Source of the DNA: Planctomyces sp. SH-PL62
Lineage (GTDB): Bacteria > Planctomycetota > Planctomycetia > Isosphaerales > Isosphaeraceae
Direction of reading: 5' to 3'
DNA: 64,000 nucleotides
Assembly (NCBI RefSeq): GCF_001610895.1
Contig: NZ_CP011273.1
Span: forward strand, 3,844,001-3,908,000
Under the pieces are notes generated by a model, which saw only the letters and a list, made by a program, of their open reading frames with translations, made no database searches and was not told the origin of the DNA. Made by a program: the position numbers and the translations under genes. Position 1 is the stretch's first letter. The number at the start of each line of letters is the position of its first letter. Shown here piece after piece: positions 6,063 through 12,383 of this stretch.

Positions 6063-6920
6063 ATGTCGCATTGCGTTTCGTACGGCGGAGCCGCCGATTT
6101 CCCCCCGCGCGGACACCATGTCCCGAGCGAGCCCGCGAGGGTTTCAGACGATCAGGTGCGGACGGTCTGCCGTCTCGCCGCGACATGGCTGCGAACCTGG
6201 AACGCCCAGATCCGGGAGCCGGTGAGGCTTCCGGACGGGACCATCGTCCGTAATCGCATGGATCACTCGCCTGACCTCGAAGAGAATTTGGAACGCCTAG
6301 CTCATAATGCCATGGCGGAGTGTGTTATCGCGATCACCGACAATCGGTGGCGATGGTCCCCTGACGCCTCCGTTTGGACGTACATCGCTCACATCGAATG
6401 CGAGGATCGGAATCTGACTCCCACCGTGCGACGGTTTTTTCGCGCGGCCTATGACGCATTCCTCAATGAACTCGGGAGCCTGTTCCCCGAGAAGCCGCCG
6501 CGCGAAGCCTGGCGCGAGATGAAAGACGCCTTGGAGGAAACCGAGCGGGCTTTCAATCTCACGCCCCCCGCGATCCCGGTCCGGTCCCACGCCCATCCCA
6601 CGGCCGCGCCCGCCGCTCCCACTCCTCCCGAGGCCGCCGCCCCGCCTGCAAACGGATCGAACGCGATCGACTGCGCCGACATCGTCGAGCGGTTGCGGAA
6701 AGCGGGGAAGCGGACTTCCGCCATGCTGGTGGAATACATGGCCGACAAGAGGCAGGCGACGGCCGCCGACATCGCCGAACGAGTCCACGACACCAGAGTG
6801 AGCATCGACGCCATTCGGAAGAATGTGGCACGCACCAACGGCTTCCTCGTGGGAATCGGCTCTCGACTTTCGTTTCGTGTGGCGTCGGACCGGGTGTTCC
6901 GGGAGATTTCACCCGAGTAG
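6063..6920 (+). CDS. Unknown island protein with C-terminal winged-helix-like segment
   Basis: A 285-residue protein I do not recognise. Residues 30-165 look like a compact, Trp-rich helical domain with many charged residues. Residues 170-205 are a Pro/Ala linker. The C-terminal 80 residues (ADIVERLRKAGKRTS, then a region of alternating helices and basic residues) look like a winged helix. It is the first gene of the plus-strand island cassette and is preceded by the two alternative hairpins at 5996-6056, and it is followed by an 11-base phased repeat. No signal peptide or membrane segment is visible. A replication-initiation or regulatory role is possible but not shown. Confidence 0.6.
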   Translation: MSHCVSYGGAADFPPRGHHVPSEPARVSDDQVRTVCRLAATWLRTWNAQIREPVRLPDGTIVRNRMDHSPDLEENLERLAHNAMAECVIAITDNRWRWSPDASVWTYIAHIECEDRNLTPTVRRFFRAAYDAFLNELGSLFPEKPPREAWREMKDALEETERAFNLTPPAIPVRSHAHPTAAPAAPTPPEAAAPPANGSNAIDCADIVERLRKAGKRTSAMLVEYMADKRQATAADIAERVHDTRVSIDAIRKNVARTNGFLVGIGSRLSFRVASDRVFREISPE

Positions 6921-6922
6921 CC

Positions 6923-6966
6923 GAGATGTCCGCGAGATGTCCGTCGGAAGTCCGCCAGATGTCCAT
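6923..6966. repeat. Four tandem 11-base repeats, helically phased
   Basis: The units GAGATGTCCGC (6923), GAGATGTCCGT (6934), CGGAAGTCCGC (6945) and CAGATGTCCAT (6956) follow each other with an exact 11-base period. The consensus is sAGATGTCCGy. Eleven bases is one helical turn, so all copies face the same side of the DNA. The array begins 3 bases after the stop codon of the 6063 gene and lies about 70 bases before the next small gene; an operator or integrase arm-type site is likely (inference). Confidence 0.6.
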
Positions 6967-7035
6967 TTGGCGTCCGGCCTCCCCGACATACTGCCTACAG
7001 AGTCGAACCGAGTCCGCTCGAACTCTGAGGTGGAT

Positions 7036-7221
7036 ATGCCTGAACATGACGACTTGATCCCGCGACCGCCCATCGTCCGCGAGCGTCTGGCGCAAACCTG
7101 CCGAGAAGCCGCACGTCTGCGCCGCCTCTTGCGGCTGGCCGAAGCCGCCGCCCGCGACCGCCATCAGGAAGGCCCCCGGAGCGATTCGCAGGAAGCCGAT
7201 GGGCATGGAGGTGGCTCATGA
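7036..7221 (+). CDS. Small island protein, 61 residues, unknown
   Basis: ATG at 7036, stop overlapping the next start by four bases (ATGA at 7218-7221). The product is short, Arg-rich and predicted helical (RERLAQTCREAARLRRLLRL), like small regulatory proteins of phages. I recognise no family. Tight coupling to the helix-turn-helix gene downstream supports it being real. Confidence 0.5.
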   Translation: MPEHDDLIPRPPIVRERLAQTCREAARLRRLLRLAEAAARDRHQEGPRSDSQEADGHGGGS

Positions 7222-10392: not shown

Positions 10393-10808
10393 GCACGCGA
10401 TTCCGCGAGTGGCGACCTGGATTCCTTGACGCGCTGGCCCGATGCGGCAACGTCCGCGACGCCTGTGCCGACGCCGGAATCCACCGATCGACCGCCTACG
10501 AACGCCGGGCGAAAGACGCCGCGTTCGCCGAAGCCTGGGATGACGCGATCGATGACGCCGCCGACGAACTGGAACAGGAAGCCCGTCGCCGCGCCGTCGA
10601 AGGGACCGAGCGGACCCGATTCGTCCGCACCGGAACCGACGACGCGGGACGGCCCGTCTACGAACGCATCAGTTTCCGTGAATACTCGGACCTACTGCTG
10701 ATCTTCCTGCTGAAAGCCGTCCGTCCCGAGAAGTACCGCGATCGATACGACGTGAAAGCGACCGTTGCGGCGATGGCGGGCGGGCGCGAGGCCCTTGACG
10801 CGGATTGA
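10389..10808 (+). CDS. Small terminase subunit-like DNA-binding protein
   Basis: A 139-residue protein with an N-terminal helix-turn-helix (ALARCGNVRDACADAGIHRS) followed by acidic helices (AWDDAIDDAADELEQEARRRAVEG), a pattern common in phage small terminase subunits, which recognise DNA for packaging. AGGAG lies 6 bases before the ATG, and the ATG overlaps the primase stop. No large terminase, portal or capsid gene follows; the integrase is next. A TerS without other packaging genes is a feature of phage satellites that redirect a helper phage. It could also be a generic phage-type regulator. Confidence 0.65.
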   Translation: MSTRFREWRPGFLDALARCGNVRDACADAGIHRSTAYERRAKDAAFAEAWDDAIDDAADELEQEARRRAVEGTERTRFVRTGTDDAGRPVYERISFREYSDLLLIFLLKAVRPEKYRDRYDVKATVAAMAGGREALDAD

Positions 10809-10899
10809 TGCAGGCGAGACAAGGGGAGGGCGGGGGACGGGACCGCTTGCGACGGCCCCGCCCCCTTGATTCGACCCTACCTGGATAGGAGCGAACCCG

Positions 10900-12372
10900 A
10901 TGGCGAGTCTACGAAAACGCGGTAAGACGTGGTACTACCGATTCACCGACGCTGACGGGGTGAAGCGCGAGCACAAGGGATGCACCGACAAGCGGGCGAC
11001 CGAAGACCTGGCCCGCGCCGCCGAGTCCGAGGCCGCGAAGGTGCGGGCTGGGTTGGTCGATCCTAGCGACCTCGCACGGAAAGAGCACGCCGCCCGGTCG
11101 ATCGGCGAGCATATCGAGGCGTGGGGCGACTCCCTACGGTCCAAGGGGGCGACGGCTCAGCACGTCGCCCTCTCCGTCTCTCGCGTCCGACGCCTCGCGG
11201 CGATTACCTTCGGCGCTACGCCGTCCGAAGTCGAACGCCCTCGCACCGCGAAGCGATCCGACCTGCCCACCTACGAAGCCAGGCTGGCGGACTGGCTGGC
11301 CCCCGCACGGCTCGGACACCTGACGGCCGATCGCGTGCAATCCGCCCTGGCCGCGCTGCGGTCGGGGGGGATGTCGCTCGGATCGGTGAACCATCACAAG
11401 ACGGCGGTTCGGTCGTTCGCGAAGTGGGCGTGGAAGTCGGGCCGGCTGGCTTCCGATCCGCTCACCGGGCTGTCGGGGTTCAACGCGAAGGAAGACCGTC
11501 GCCACGACCGGCGAACCATCGGACTCGATGAACTGATGCGACTGGTCGAAGCCGCCCGCACCGGCCCCCCCTGGCGGAAGATGTCCGGCCCCAGCCGGGC
11601 GCTGCTGTATCGGCTGGCCGTCGCCACCGGCCTGCGGTACGGCGAGATTCGGAGCATCCGGCCCGAATCCTTCGACTGGCGCGCCGACCCGCCCACCGTC
11701 ACCGTCGCGGCGGGCTATACGAAGAACGGGCATGAGGCGACGTTGCCCCTGCCCGGCGACCTCGCGGACGACTTGCGGCCCTACGTCGCGACCGCCGCGC
11801 CCGGCGAACCCATCTTCCCCCTGACGGACGATCGCGGCGCGACCATGCTCCGCATCGACCTGGAACGCGCGGGCATCCCCTATCGCGACGCCGGGGGACT
11901 GGTGTTCGACTTCCACAGCCTGCGATGCCAGACCGCGACGTTGCTCGACGCCGCCGGAGTGTCGCCGCGAGTCGCCCAACGCATCATGCGACACAGCACG
12001 CCTGGATTGGCAGGCCGCTACACCCGGCCCCGCGCCGTGGACGTGGAGCGGGCCGCGCTGTCGCTGCCCACCTTGCGACCGGATTCCGGCCGCTCCGAGG
12101 CGTCGAATCTGGCCGCGACGGGAACGGACGTTCAACCCATCAAAAATGTCCTTGCCCACCATTTGCCCACCGCAGGGGACGGAATGGGGCGGGATCAGTT
12201 GGATTCTGTCGTGATGACTCGATCAGATGAGCGATCGAGCATAACGCCTAAAGCCGGTGGGGGACGGGATTTGGCGGTTCCCGTCGGCTCGATTCGGGGG
12301 GAAAAGGGAGTGGGCAGAGGCGGGATCGAACCGCCGACACACGGATTTTCAGTCCGTTGCTCTACCAGCTGA
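10900..12372 (+). CDS. Tyrosine-type site-specific integrase
   Basis: Catalyses insertion and excision of the island at tRNA-Phe. An N-terminal arm-binding region (residues 1-60) and SAM-like core-binding domain (about 65-185) precede the catalytic domain. Active-site residues visible are R246 (ATGLRYGEI), K275, H339 and R342 (FHSLRC), H365 (RHSTPG) and the nucleophile Y374 (GRYTR). AGGAG precedes the ATG at 10900. The last 100 residues beyond the catalytic domain are low-complexity and read into the tRNA gene on the other strand, so the extreme C-terminus depends on the integrated state. HSLRC replaces the usual HDLRH. Confidence 0.9.
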   Translation: MASLRKRGKTWYYRFTDADGVKREHKGCTDKRATEDLARAAESEAAKVRAGLVDPSDLARKEHAARSIGEHIEAWGDSLRSKGATAQHVALSVSRVRRLAAITFGATPSEVERPRTAKRSDLPTYEARLADWLAPARLGHLTADRVQSALAALRSGGMSLGSVNHHKTAVRSFAKWAWKSGRLASDPLTGLSGFNAKEDRRHDRRTIGLDELMRLVEAARTGPPWRKMSGPSRALLYRLAVATGLRYGEIRSIRPESFDWRADPPTVTVAAGYTKNGHEATLPLPGDLADDLRPYVATAAPGEPIFPLTDDRGATMLRIDLERAGIPYRDAGGLVFDFHSLRCQTATLLDAAGVSPRVAQRIMRHSTPGLAGRYTRPRAVDVERAALSLPTLRPDSGRSEASNLAATGTDVQPIKNVLAHHLPTAGDGMGRDQLDSVVMTRSDERSSITPKAGGGRDLAVPVGSIRGEKGVGRGGIEPPTHGFSVRCSTS

Positions 12373-12383
12373 GCTATCTGCCC
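12311..12383 (-). tRNA. tRNA-Phe (GAA anticodon)
   Basis: A complete cloverleaf on the minus strand: acceptor GGGCAGA pairing with TCTGCCC, D-arm AGCTCAGCTGGTAGAGC, anticodon loop CTGAAAA between ACGGA and TCCGT, T-arm GGTTCGATCC. The CCA end is not encoded. It is the attachment site of the island: the integrase frame ends 61 bases inside it on the opposite strand. Confidence 0.95.

Follow-up and report, generated by a model that had tools for sequence, protein, structure and literature searches.

A 14.5-kb integrative element at a tRNA-Phe gene of Planctomyces sp. SH-PL62 is probably spread as a phage satellite, judging from its genes. The element lies across the left edge of the analysed stretch of DNA (the window; 64,000 nucleotides, C1:3844001-3908000 of the 6.78-Mb, 5-contig host genome G000). 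It looks complete and is satellite-like in gene content, combining an integrase (Int, encoded by int), an AlpA-like regulator, two replication proteins and a small terminase subunit (TerS). In addition, the chances seem roughly even for a broader proposal, in which the attachment site of the excised circle (attP) lies inside int in these islands as well as in one or more prophages, and integration would trade a conserved Int tail for a few tRNA-encoded residues, so that the integration state would set the form of the enzyme (a molecular memory). Packaging would then come down to one exchangeable slot for TerS, by which an ordinary integrative island could become a satellite through the gain of one gene.

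Extent and gene content of the island

The 3' part of the tRNA-Phe (gaa) gene (12310..12383, minus strand), which is the integration target, is duplicated exactly (50 bp) at both ends of the island, giving a length of 14,540 bp from one attachment (att) site to the other. The right copy (attR) is found at C1:3856308-3856357 (window 12308-12357) and the identical 50-bp left copy (attL) at C1:3841768-3841817 (window -2232 to -2183), i.e. outside the window, with the left end of the island 2.2 kb beyond the window's left edge. An earlier reading of the window from its letters alone (the sequence-only reading) had proposed a phage-satellite-like island at 6063-12383, with a left att site outside the window. 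The att site was indeed located there and the genes are present at these positions, but since the att pair spans 14,540 bp, the proposed interval covers no more than its right-hand portion. In related genomes, the tRNA-Phe site is empty in G420, and G421 retains a fragment of an integrase 3' end.

From attL onwards, the island encodes a methyltransferase, a Fic protein and a restriction enzyme on the minus strand, followed by ~1 kb without a called gene and then by a plus-strand run consisting of an open reading frame (ORF) of no known family, a small ORF, AlpA, a DUF3987 protein, a CHC2/TOPRIM primase, TerS and the integrase. The last five, which the sequence-only reading had already named, were all recovered in profile scans. 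The AlpA-like excisionase/regulator (7218..7433, 71 aa) matches Pfam HTH_17 (8.6e-7, over the cut-off) and TIGR01764 excise (1.3e-4, below the cut-off), and is 77% identical to the AlpA of a tRNA-Lys island in G419. The DUF3987 helicase/primase-type replication protein (7430..9100, scanned as 7199-9100) matches PF13148 (3.5e-53) and the DNA helicases of phrog_2373 (1.9e-32), and the primase (9208..10392, scanned as 9181-10392) matches PF01807 (3.4e-16), Toprim_2 (3.1e-5) and phrog_47 (1.8e-30). TerS (10389..10808, 139 aa) matches phrog_4044 (3.2e-31) and, below the cut-off, Pfam Sf6_terminase (0.0079). The tyrosine integrase (10900..12372, 490 aa when integrated) matches PF00589 over residues 210-377 (3.4e-14) and phrog_1 (2.2e-37), and its final residues in the integrated form are encoded by tRNA-Phe. 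AlpA and DUF3987 overlap by 4 bp, as do the primase stop and the TerS start.

The sequence-only reading had seen no capsid or tail genes and had named capsid, portal or large terminase subunit (TerL) genes in the complete element as what would speak against a satellite. In Pfam and PHROG scans of the proteins of the complete 14,540-bp island, no capsid, portal, TerL or other structural genes were found, which sets aside a complete prophage, and none of the lytic families covered by these scans was found either. Furthermore, when the 10 called island genes were compared by phmmer with 514 proteins (the genes from TerS onward in 93 TerS loci plus three prophages; mostly phage, with some non-phage neighbours), TerS alone matched.

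The small terminase subunit

Based on its sequence, TerS is a member of a phage packaging family. Its predicted model (AlphaFold, 39 sequences, mean pLDDT 89, pTM 0.67) consists of a helix-turn-helix (HTH), a long helix, a beta-hairpin and a C-terminal helix, and in a search with its sequence profile only Sf6 gp1 sequences were found below an E of 0.1 (0.02-0.05). Relatives occur in 4 of 392 genomes sampled from the phylum and, within the order, in 4 of 45 (the host being counted in both), and none was found among plasmid records. A total of 93 TerS loci was gathered from genome contigs (28) and viral contigs (65), and 56 of them have a TerL within the stretch examined (phmmer), in three cases at 3-5 kb from TerS. 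Inspection of 30 of the remaining 37 revealed several with a TerL-like gene beside TerS by eye, while the rest are short or unresolved, except for 8 that are chromosomal. The nearest relative by tree is on a 15.5-kb contig (G419:C9; 55% identical, SH-aLRT 96 in a quick tree of 84), on which the 54 TerL seeds used here found no match.

As a separate observation, two planctomycete loci (L018 in G245, 4913-9491, and L019 in G203, 10235-14888) also carry TerS and AlpA-like genes with TerL undetected; one has an integrase overlapping tRNA-Met and the other a primase-helicase.

An integrase frame predicted to cross attP

The att core starts at codon 470 of the 490 codons of int, i.e. attP seems to be located within the gene. 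Because the catalytic match (residues 210-377) ends well before att, the integrated form is predicted to remain an enzyme. When the excised circle was modelled in silico by joining the two island ends at the att core, 7 of the 8 mapped elements proved to have an int frame that stays open through attP and reaches a conserved tail at the far side. In the window island the join adds 61 residues to Int (490 to 551), and the corresponding change is 487 to 547 in G419, 472 to 537 in G429, 462 to 550 in G431, 490 to 558 in the prophage of the sister genome G418, 454 to 559 in G392 and 453 to 565 in G393, which amounts to a net gain of 60 to 112 residues across the seven. Beyond att, the other two frames are shorter than that of int in 7 of 7. 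The exception is G402, in which one att copy is a base longer than the other and the simple join stops before a tail; another tail-like frame is present near its att. At one G402 locus (L202:9906-10758), a tail lies ~0.2 kb from an integrase fragment, on the same strand and in a different frame, which is perhaps a decayed unsplit int gene.

A motif around DLAxxxxxWxxLPExxxxxILxLV is common to the added ends, and a tail profile built from five elements recovered the tails of G392 (2.3e-13) and G393 (4.5e-13), neither of which was used in building it; both lie at the far att in the int frame (the G392 join being placed at a 17-bp match). Between the tails of G429 and G431 (27 codons) there are 2, 1 and 10 differences at codon positions 1, 2 and 3, a pattern as would be expected under protein-level selection, whereas it is less marked in other pairs (15, 15, 25; 13, 17, 17; 11, 15, 22). 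In the planctomycete loci examined, the profile matched 12 frames (14 rows) at 11 places, 5 of which had built it (L002 and L004 were counted as one place), and it also matched 2 viral contigs. Among all these loci and contigs the tail and the integrase domain never shared a frame, as is expected if all copies are integrated, and no circular contig with both in a single frame was found. Neither did the tail match any solved structure or plasmid record.

Since the int frame crosses attP into the tail, integration would remove the tail. The open frame suggests selection on the circular form, and hints that the islands still circularise. Integrase ends that overlap attP are not rare in bacteria; what is new here is the conserved tail beyond it. 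No recognised self-disrupting integrase of bacteria was found in the literature searched, and a review (PMC8371274) describes self-disrupting recombinases as exclusive to Archaea, where integration separates the N-terminal from the catalytic piece of the 'suicidal' SSV-type integrases. According to the same review, the archaeal attP lies inside the int coding frame and the gene is split by integration, just as predicted in silico for the island, although in the island the catalytic part stays intact and only the C-terminal tail is lost. If true, the present finding would challenge the published Archaea-only claim (at least as worded there), and an int gene split by its own attP would let an element sense its integration by simple means.

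The island family

Related islands, which the sequence-only reading had suggested looking for, were found as a family of DUF3987-integrase elements at several tRNA genes. DUF3987 relatives (E 1e-30 or better) are present in 18 of the 45 genomes of the order (host counted), and a survey of 18 of the 22 other DUF3987 places (four were left out) revealed the family integrase in 10 loci, the primase in 8 and TerL in 1 (L183). Integrase ends overlap tRNA-Lys (G421, G419), tRNA-Met (G429) or tRNA-His (G406), and single att copies lie within tRNA-Cys in G431 and tRNA-Leu in G393. Islands bounded by att sites measure 16.6 kb in G419, 10.1 kb in G429 (with att copies 92% identical, ungapped), 7.4 kb in G431, ~25.4 kb in G392, 8.35 kb in G393 and 23.4 kb in G402; no att pair was found for those of G420 and G406.

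The closest sibling, at tRNA-Lys of G421, aligns at 85.6% over 2,681 bp, after which the alignment resumes in the integrase leader, the gap being exactly the TerS gene. With a core that differs by TerS alone, this sibling amounts to a near-natural experiment. The G419 island has the same core order, also carries methyltransferase (mod) and restriction (res) genes, and encodes a 72-aa protein between primase and integrase that matches another TerS family (phrog_51, 1e-4).

No DUF3987 relative was found in a search of viral contigs, and a similar search with the primase returned 13 relatives (25-46% identity, on contigs of 11-108 kb). Among 50,697 phage records there were 3 distant DUF3987 matches (23-26%; MT836643, MT837912 and MT836828), all faecal contigs of 6-13 kb, a size that is satellite-like.

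Prophages and a candidate helper

The host genome contains a prophage near C1:2.088-2.121 Mb with genes for TerL (phrog_2, 2e-10), portal (phrog_145, 9e-41), scaffold (9e-7) and capsid (phrog_1328, 5e-19), and this prophage is a candidate helper that, by its gene content, could supply particles. It overturned the view that the host has no resident phage, and was found through a weak phrog_2 match (26.8 bits) with a model that is also positive in 11 of 14 control genomes. The 70 kb examined at this locus revealed nothing related to the island integrase, and the gene preceding its TerL has no PHROG match. Its TerL belongs to the same broad PHROG, phrog_2, as that of a 42.8-kb prophage at tRNA-Gln of G419, which carries a TerS of the island type (phrog_4044, 1e-41) beside TerL, as well as portal and capsid genes. 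The Pfam Phage_capsid model matched the host genome on the small contig C5 only.

The G419 prophage was also considered as an occupant of tRNA-Phe, which its left end adjoins, but this was rejected, as an exact repeat, located at positions 409 and 43,229 once the loci are joined, matches window 39852, i.e. tRNA-Gln. Window 39852-39896 is a tRNA-Gln gene whose orthologue in G419 (C1 ~1,388,900-1,432,200) is occupied by the prophage, a local rearrangement having moved the latter beside tRNA-Phe.

Alternatives to a satellite

Several observations weigh against a satellite. In VIA-align three Sf6 gp1 entries lead for the TerS model (Z 6.9-7.1 over 66 residues, the next unrelated chain being at 4.5), but a Z below 8 may reflect a common arrangement, and in Foldseek Sf6 gp1 comes out on top at a non-significant E, the best being 0.23. 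Lone TerS-like HTH genes stand amid apparently ordinary chromosomal genes at 8 Sphingomonadales loci (L056-L060, L063, L064 and L066; neighbours judged by reading), and TerS homology alone is therefore no proof of packaging. Nor is TerS essential to the island family, since a hidden Markov model of the island-type TerS matched 0 of the 18 sibling loci, and the phrog_51 match in the G419 island is short and weak. The 54 TerL seeds, which found no match in any island frame, have a limited reach, as 2 of 3 control TerLs were matched by their own seed only. As to the helper, searches of the host genome revealed no second TerS of the island type, and not found either were the G419-type TerL (best E 0.07) and capsid, the G418-type TerL, or Pfam TerL_ATPase and Phage_portal (two of the three sister-phage protein searches being without a positive control). 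Finally, the tRNA-Phe att site is not satellite-specific. The sequence-only reading thus holds up in part: TerS without TerL or capsid, own replication genes and a host prophage with TerL, portal and capsid are all there, but TerS is not constant across the family, a prophage uses the att site as well, and the helper is not matched by an island-type TerS elsewhere in the host. Because TerS is not fixed, the term satellite suits this island better than the family as a whole.

The best-surviving alternative, which is possible but rather unlikely, is a self-replicating integrative island that uses particles accidentally or not at all, and in which the acquired TerS is a DNA-binding regulator or a passenger. 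Siblings that have the same core without this TerS, the lone chromosomal TerS-like genes and the lack of a matched helper in the host genome would all fit. On the other hand, TerS is not truncated, its predicted model containing the HTH as well as the C-terminal beta-hairpin region, and it is placed within the replication gene run; the same slot in the G419 sibling holds a second (though short and weakly matching) TerS family, and there is no relaxase among the Pfam matches of the island proteins. As no search for oriT was made, the latter negative concerns the relaxase alone; an integrative mobilizable element, for which a relaxase or mobilisation gene is the criterion, was rejected on the same Pfam scans.

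It is improbable that the island is a decayed prophage, i.e. a tRNA-Phe phage like that of G418 which lost its particle genes and gained restriction-modification (R-M) genes. The G418 prophage (30.2 kb at tRNA-Phe, with a 55-bp exact att repeat; IMGVR_UViG_2751185664_000002, 100% over 11,473 bp) encodes TerL (phrog_9), TerS (phrog_83), portal, head protease, tape-measure and tail proteins, with a capsid gene recognised by eye only. It shares with the island the same tRNA-Phe, an integrase that is 73% identical over all 490 aa, an AlpA that is 60% identical and ~240 bp of similar sequence (69%) at the far end. However, its integrase is nested within the island integrase clade (98/98 with the window's integrase), its TerS belongs to a different family, and it yielded no match to the DUF3987 protein or the primase of the island, both of which match instead islands at tRNA-Lys, tRNA-Met, tRNA-His and others; a remnant of particle genes is also lacking in the phmmer comparison with the 514 proteins. 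Still less credible is a defence island that has become stranded, without further mobility, in its tRNA gene, to which R-M and Fic genes covering about half of the element and the decay of occupants suggested by the integrase remnant at G421 tRNA-Phe would point, given att copies identical over 50 bp, open core genes and an open frame across attP.

Proposed life cycle and comparison with known systems

For a phage satellite, the gene content would fit the following course. A phage signal or a phage AlpA would switch on the island AlpA, which would act as excisionase and, together with Int, release the island as a circle, to be replicated by DUF3987 and the primase. The island TerS would then bind the island DNA at a packaging site and recruit helper TerL and procapsid, after which the particles would deliver the island to a new cell for integration by Int, while the R-M system would guard both cell and island. 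The long Int, made with its tail from the circle, may favour integration, and the short Int, made after integration, may excise only together with AlpA.

If so, phage satellites would extend to a phylum for which, in line with the sequence-only reading, no example was found in a literature search that was thin on subscription journals and bioRxiv preprints; within the same coverage, no satellite with both a small terminase and DUF3987 was found. Proposed satellites outside the classic hosts, such as tycheposons and VEIMEs, are named in PMC11389934, and the island may likewise be a satellite outside those hosts. According to PMC6092414, phage-inducible chromosomal islands (PICI) have an integrase, a replication module, an AlpA-type regulator, no structural genes and a length of 12-15 kb, all of which the island (14,540 bp) matches, and some carry terS, as the island does. 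The gene order of the island differs from the prototype (AlpA-DUF3987-primase-TerS-Int, in one direction). A further PICI criterion in that text is an att site that is never occupied by a prophage, and since the G418 prophage, from the same genus, occupies tRNA-Phe, PICI membership was rejected. With the PICMI, for which the Pfam models searched include integrase PF00589, AlpA PF12728 and DUF3987 PF13148 (PMC10803314), the island has the core of int, AlpA and DUF3987 in common. In the same source fis is mandatory as neighbour and integration site and the hosts are Vibrionaceae, in contrast to tRNA-Phe in a planctomycete, and PICMI115 is without terS whereas the island has TerS and a CHC2 primase; membership was therefore not assigned. 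P4-like satellites are marked by genes of the Psu, Delta and Sid type. None of these families was among the Pfam matches of the island proteins, although no search aimed at them was made.

Cargo and other features

The suggestion that an R-M system may be cargo was borne out, as mod and res both lie inside the att bounds and, with Fic, make up about half of the island. All three genes are on the minus strand. The type III-like DNA methyltransferase encoded by mod (888 aa; PADLOC MTase_III, 2.5e-265; Pfam N6_N4_Mtase, 2.5e-32) has its N-terminal part at 1..705 and extends to the left of the window (L004:16039-18705). Between mod and res lies a SoFic-type Fic protein (716..1909; PADLOC SoFic, 1.7e-111; Fic_N and Fic; NCBIfam SoFic equivalog below the cut-off), and res (1987..4992) encodes a restriction endonuclease of 1001 aa in the NCBIfam BPTD_3080 family (1097.7 bits, cut-off 800).

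The region of ~1 kb without called genes (5045..6062) has several repeats and, in addition, CCCCTAAA in three copies (3 matches in the window versus 0.30 expected, a number reached in 1 of 100 shuffles), and is a possible candidate for the replication origin or control region of the island. It is followed on the plus strand by an ORF without assigned function (6063..6920, starting at 6063 or 6312; no PHROG match and no Pfam match over the cut-off) and by a small conserved ORF (7036..7221, starting MPEHDD), both with homologues in L174, L176 and L180.

Two small contigs were noted besides. G419:C9 (L014; 15,502 bp, from a sister species), which holds the TerS nearest to that of the island, encodes a ParA-like protein, a D5 primase and a 712-aa protein that falls in no family, and no TerL was found on it. 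C5 of the host genome (G000:C5, L189; 12,514 bp) is a small replicon that encodes an HK97-type capsid protein (phrog_617, 3.6e-24), and none of the TerL seeds matched it. The N- and C-terminal parts of its D5-like primase are at opposite ends of the contig, as if it were circular, although no frame runs across the joined ends. The primases of C5 and G419:C9 share 70% identity over 450 aa, and the two contigs may represent a family of small phage-derived replicons, each of which has retained one packaging or capsid gene.

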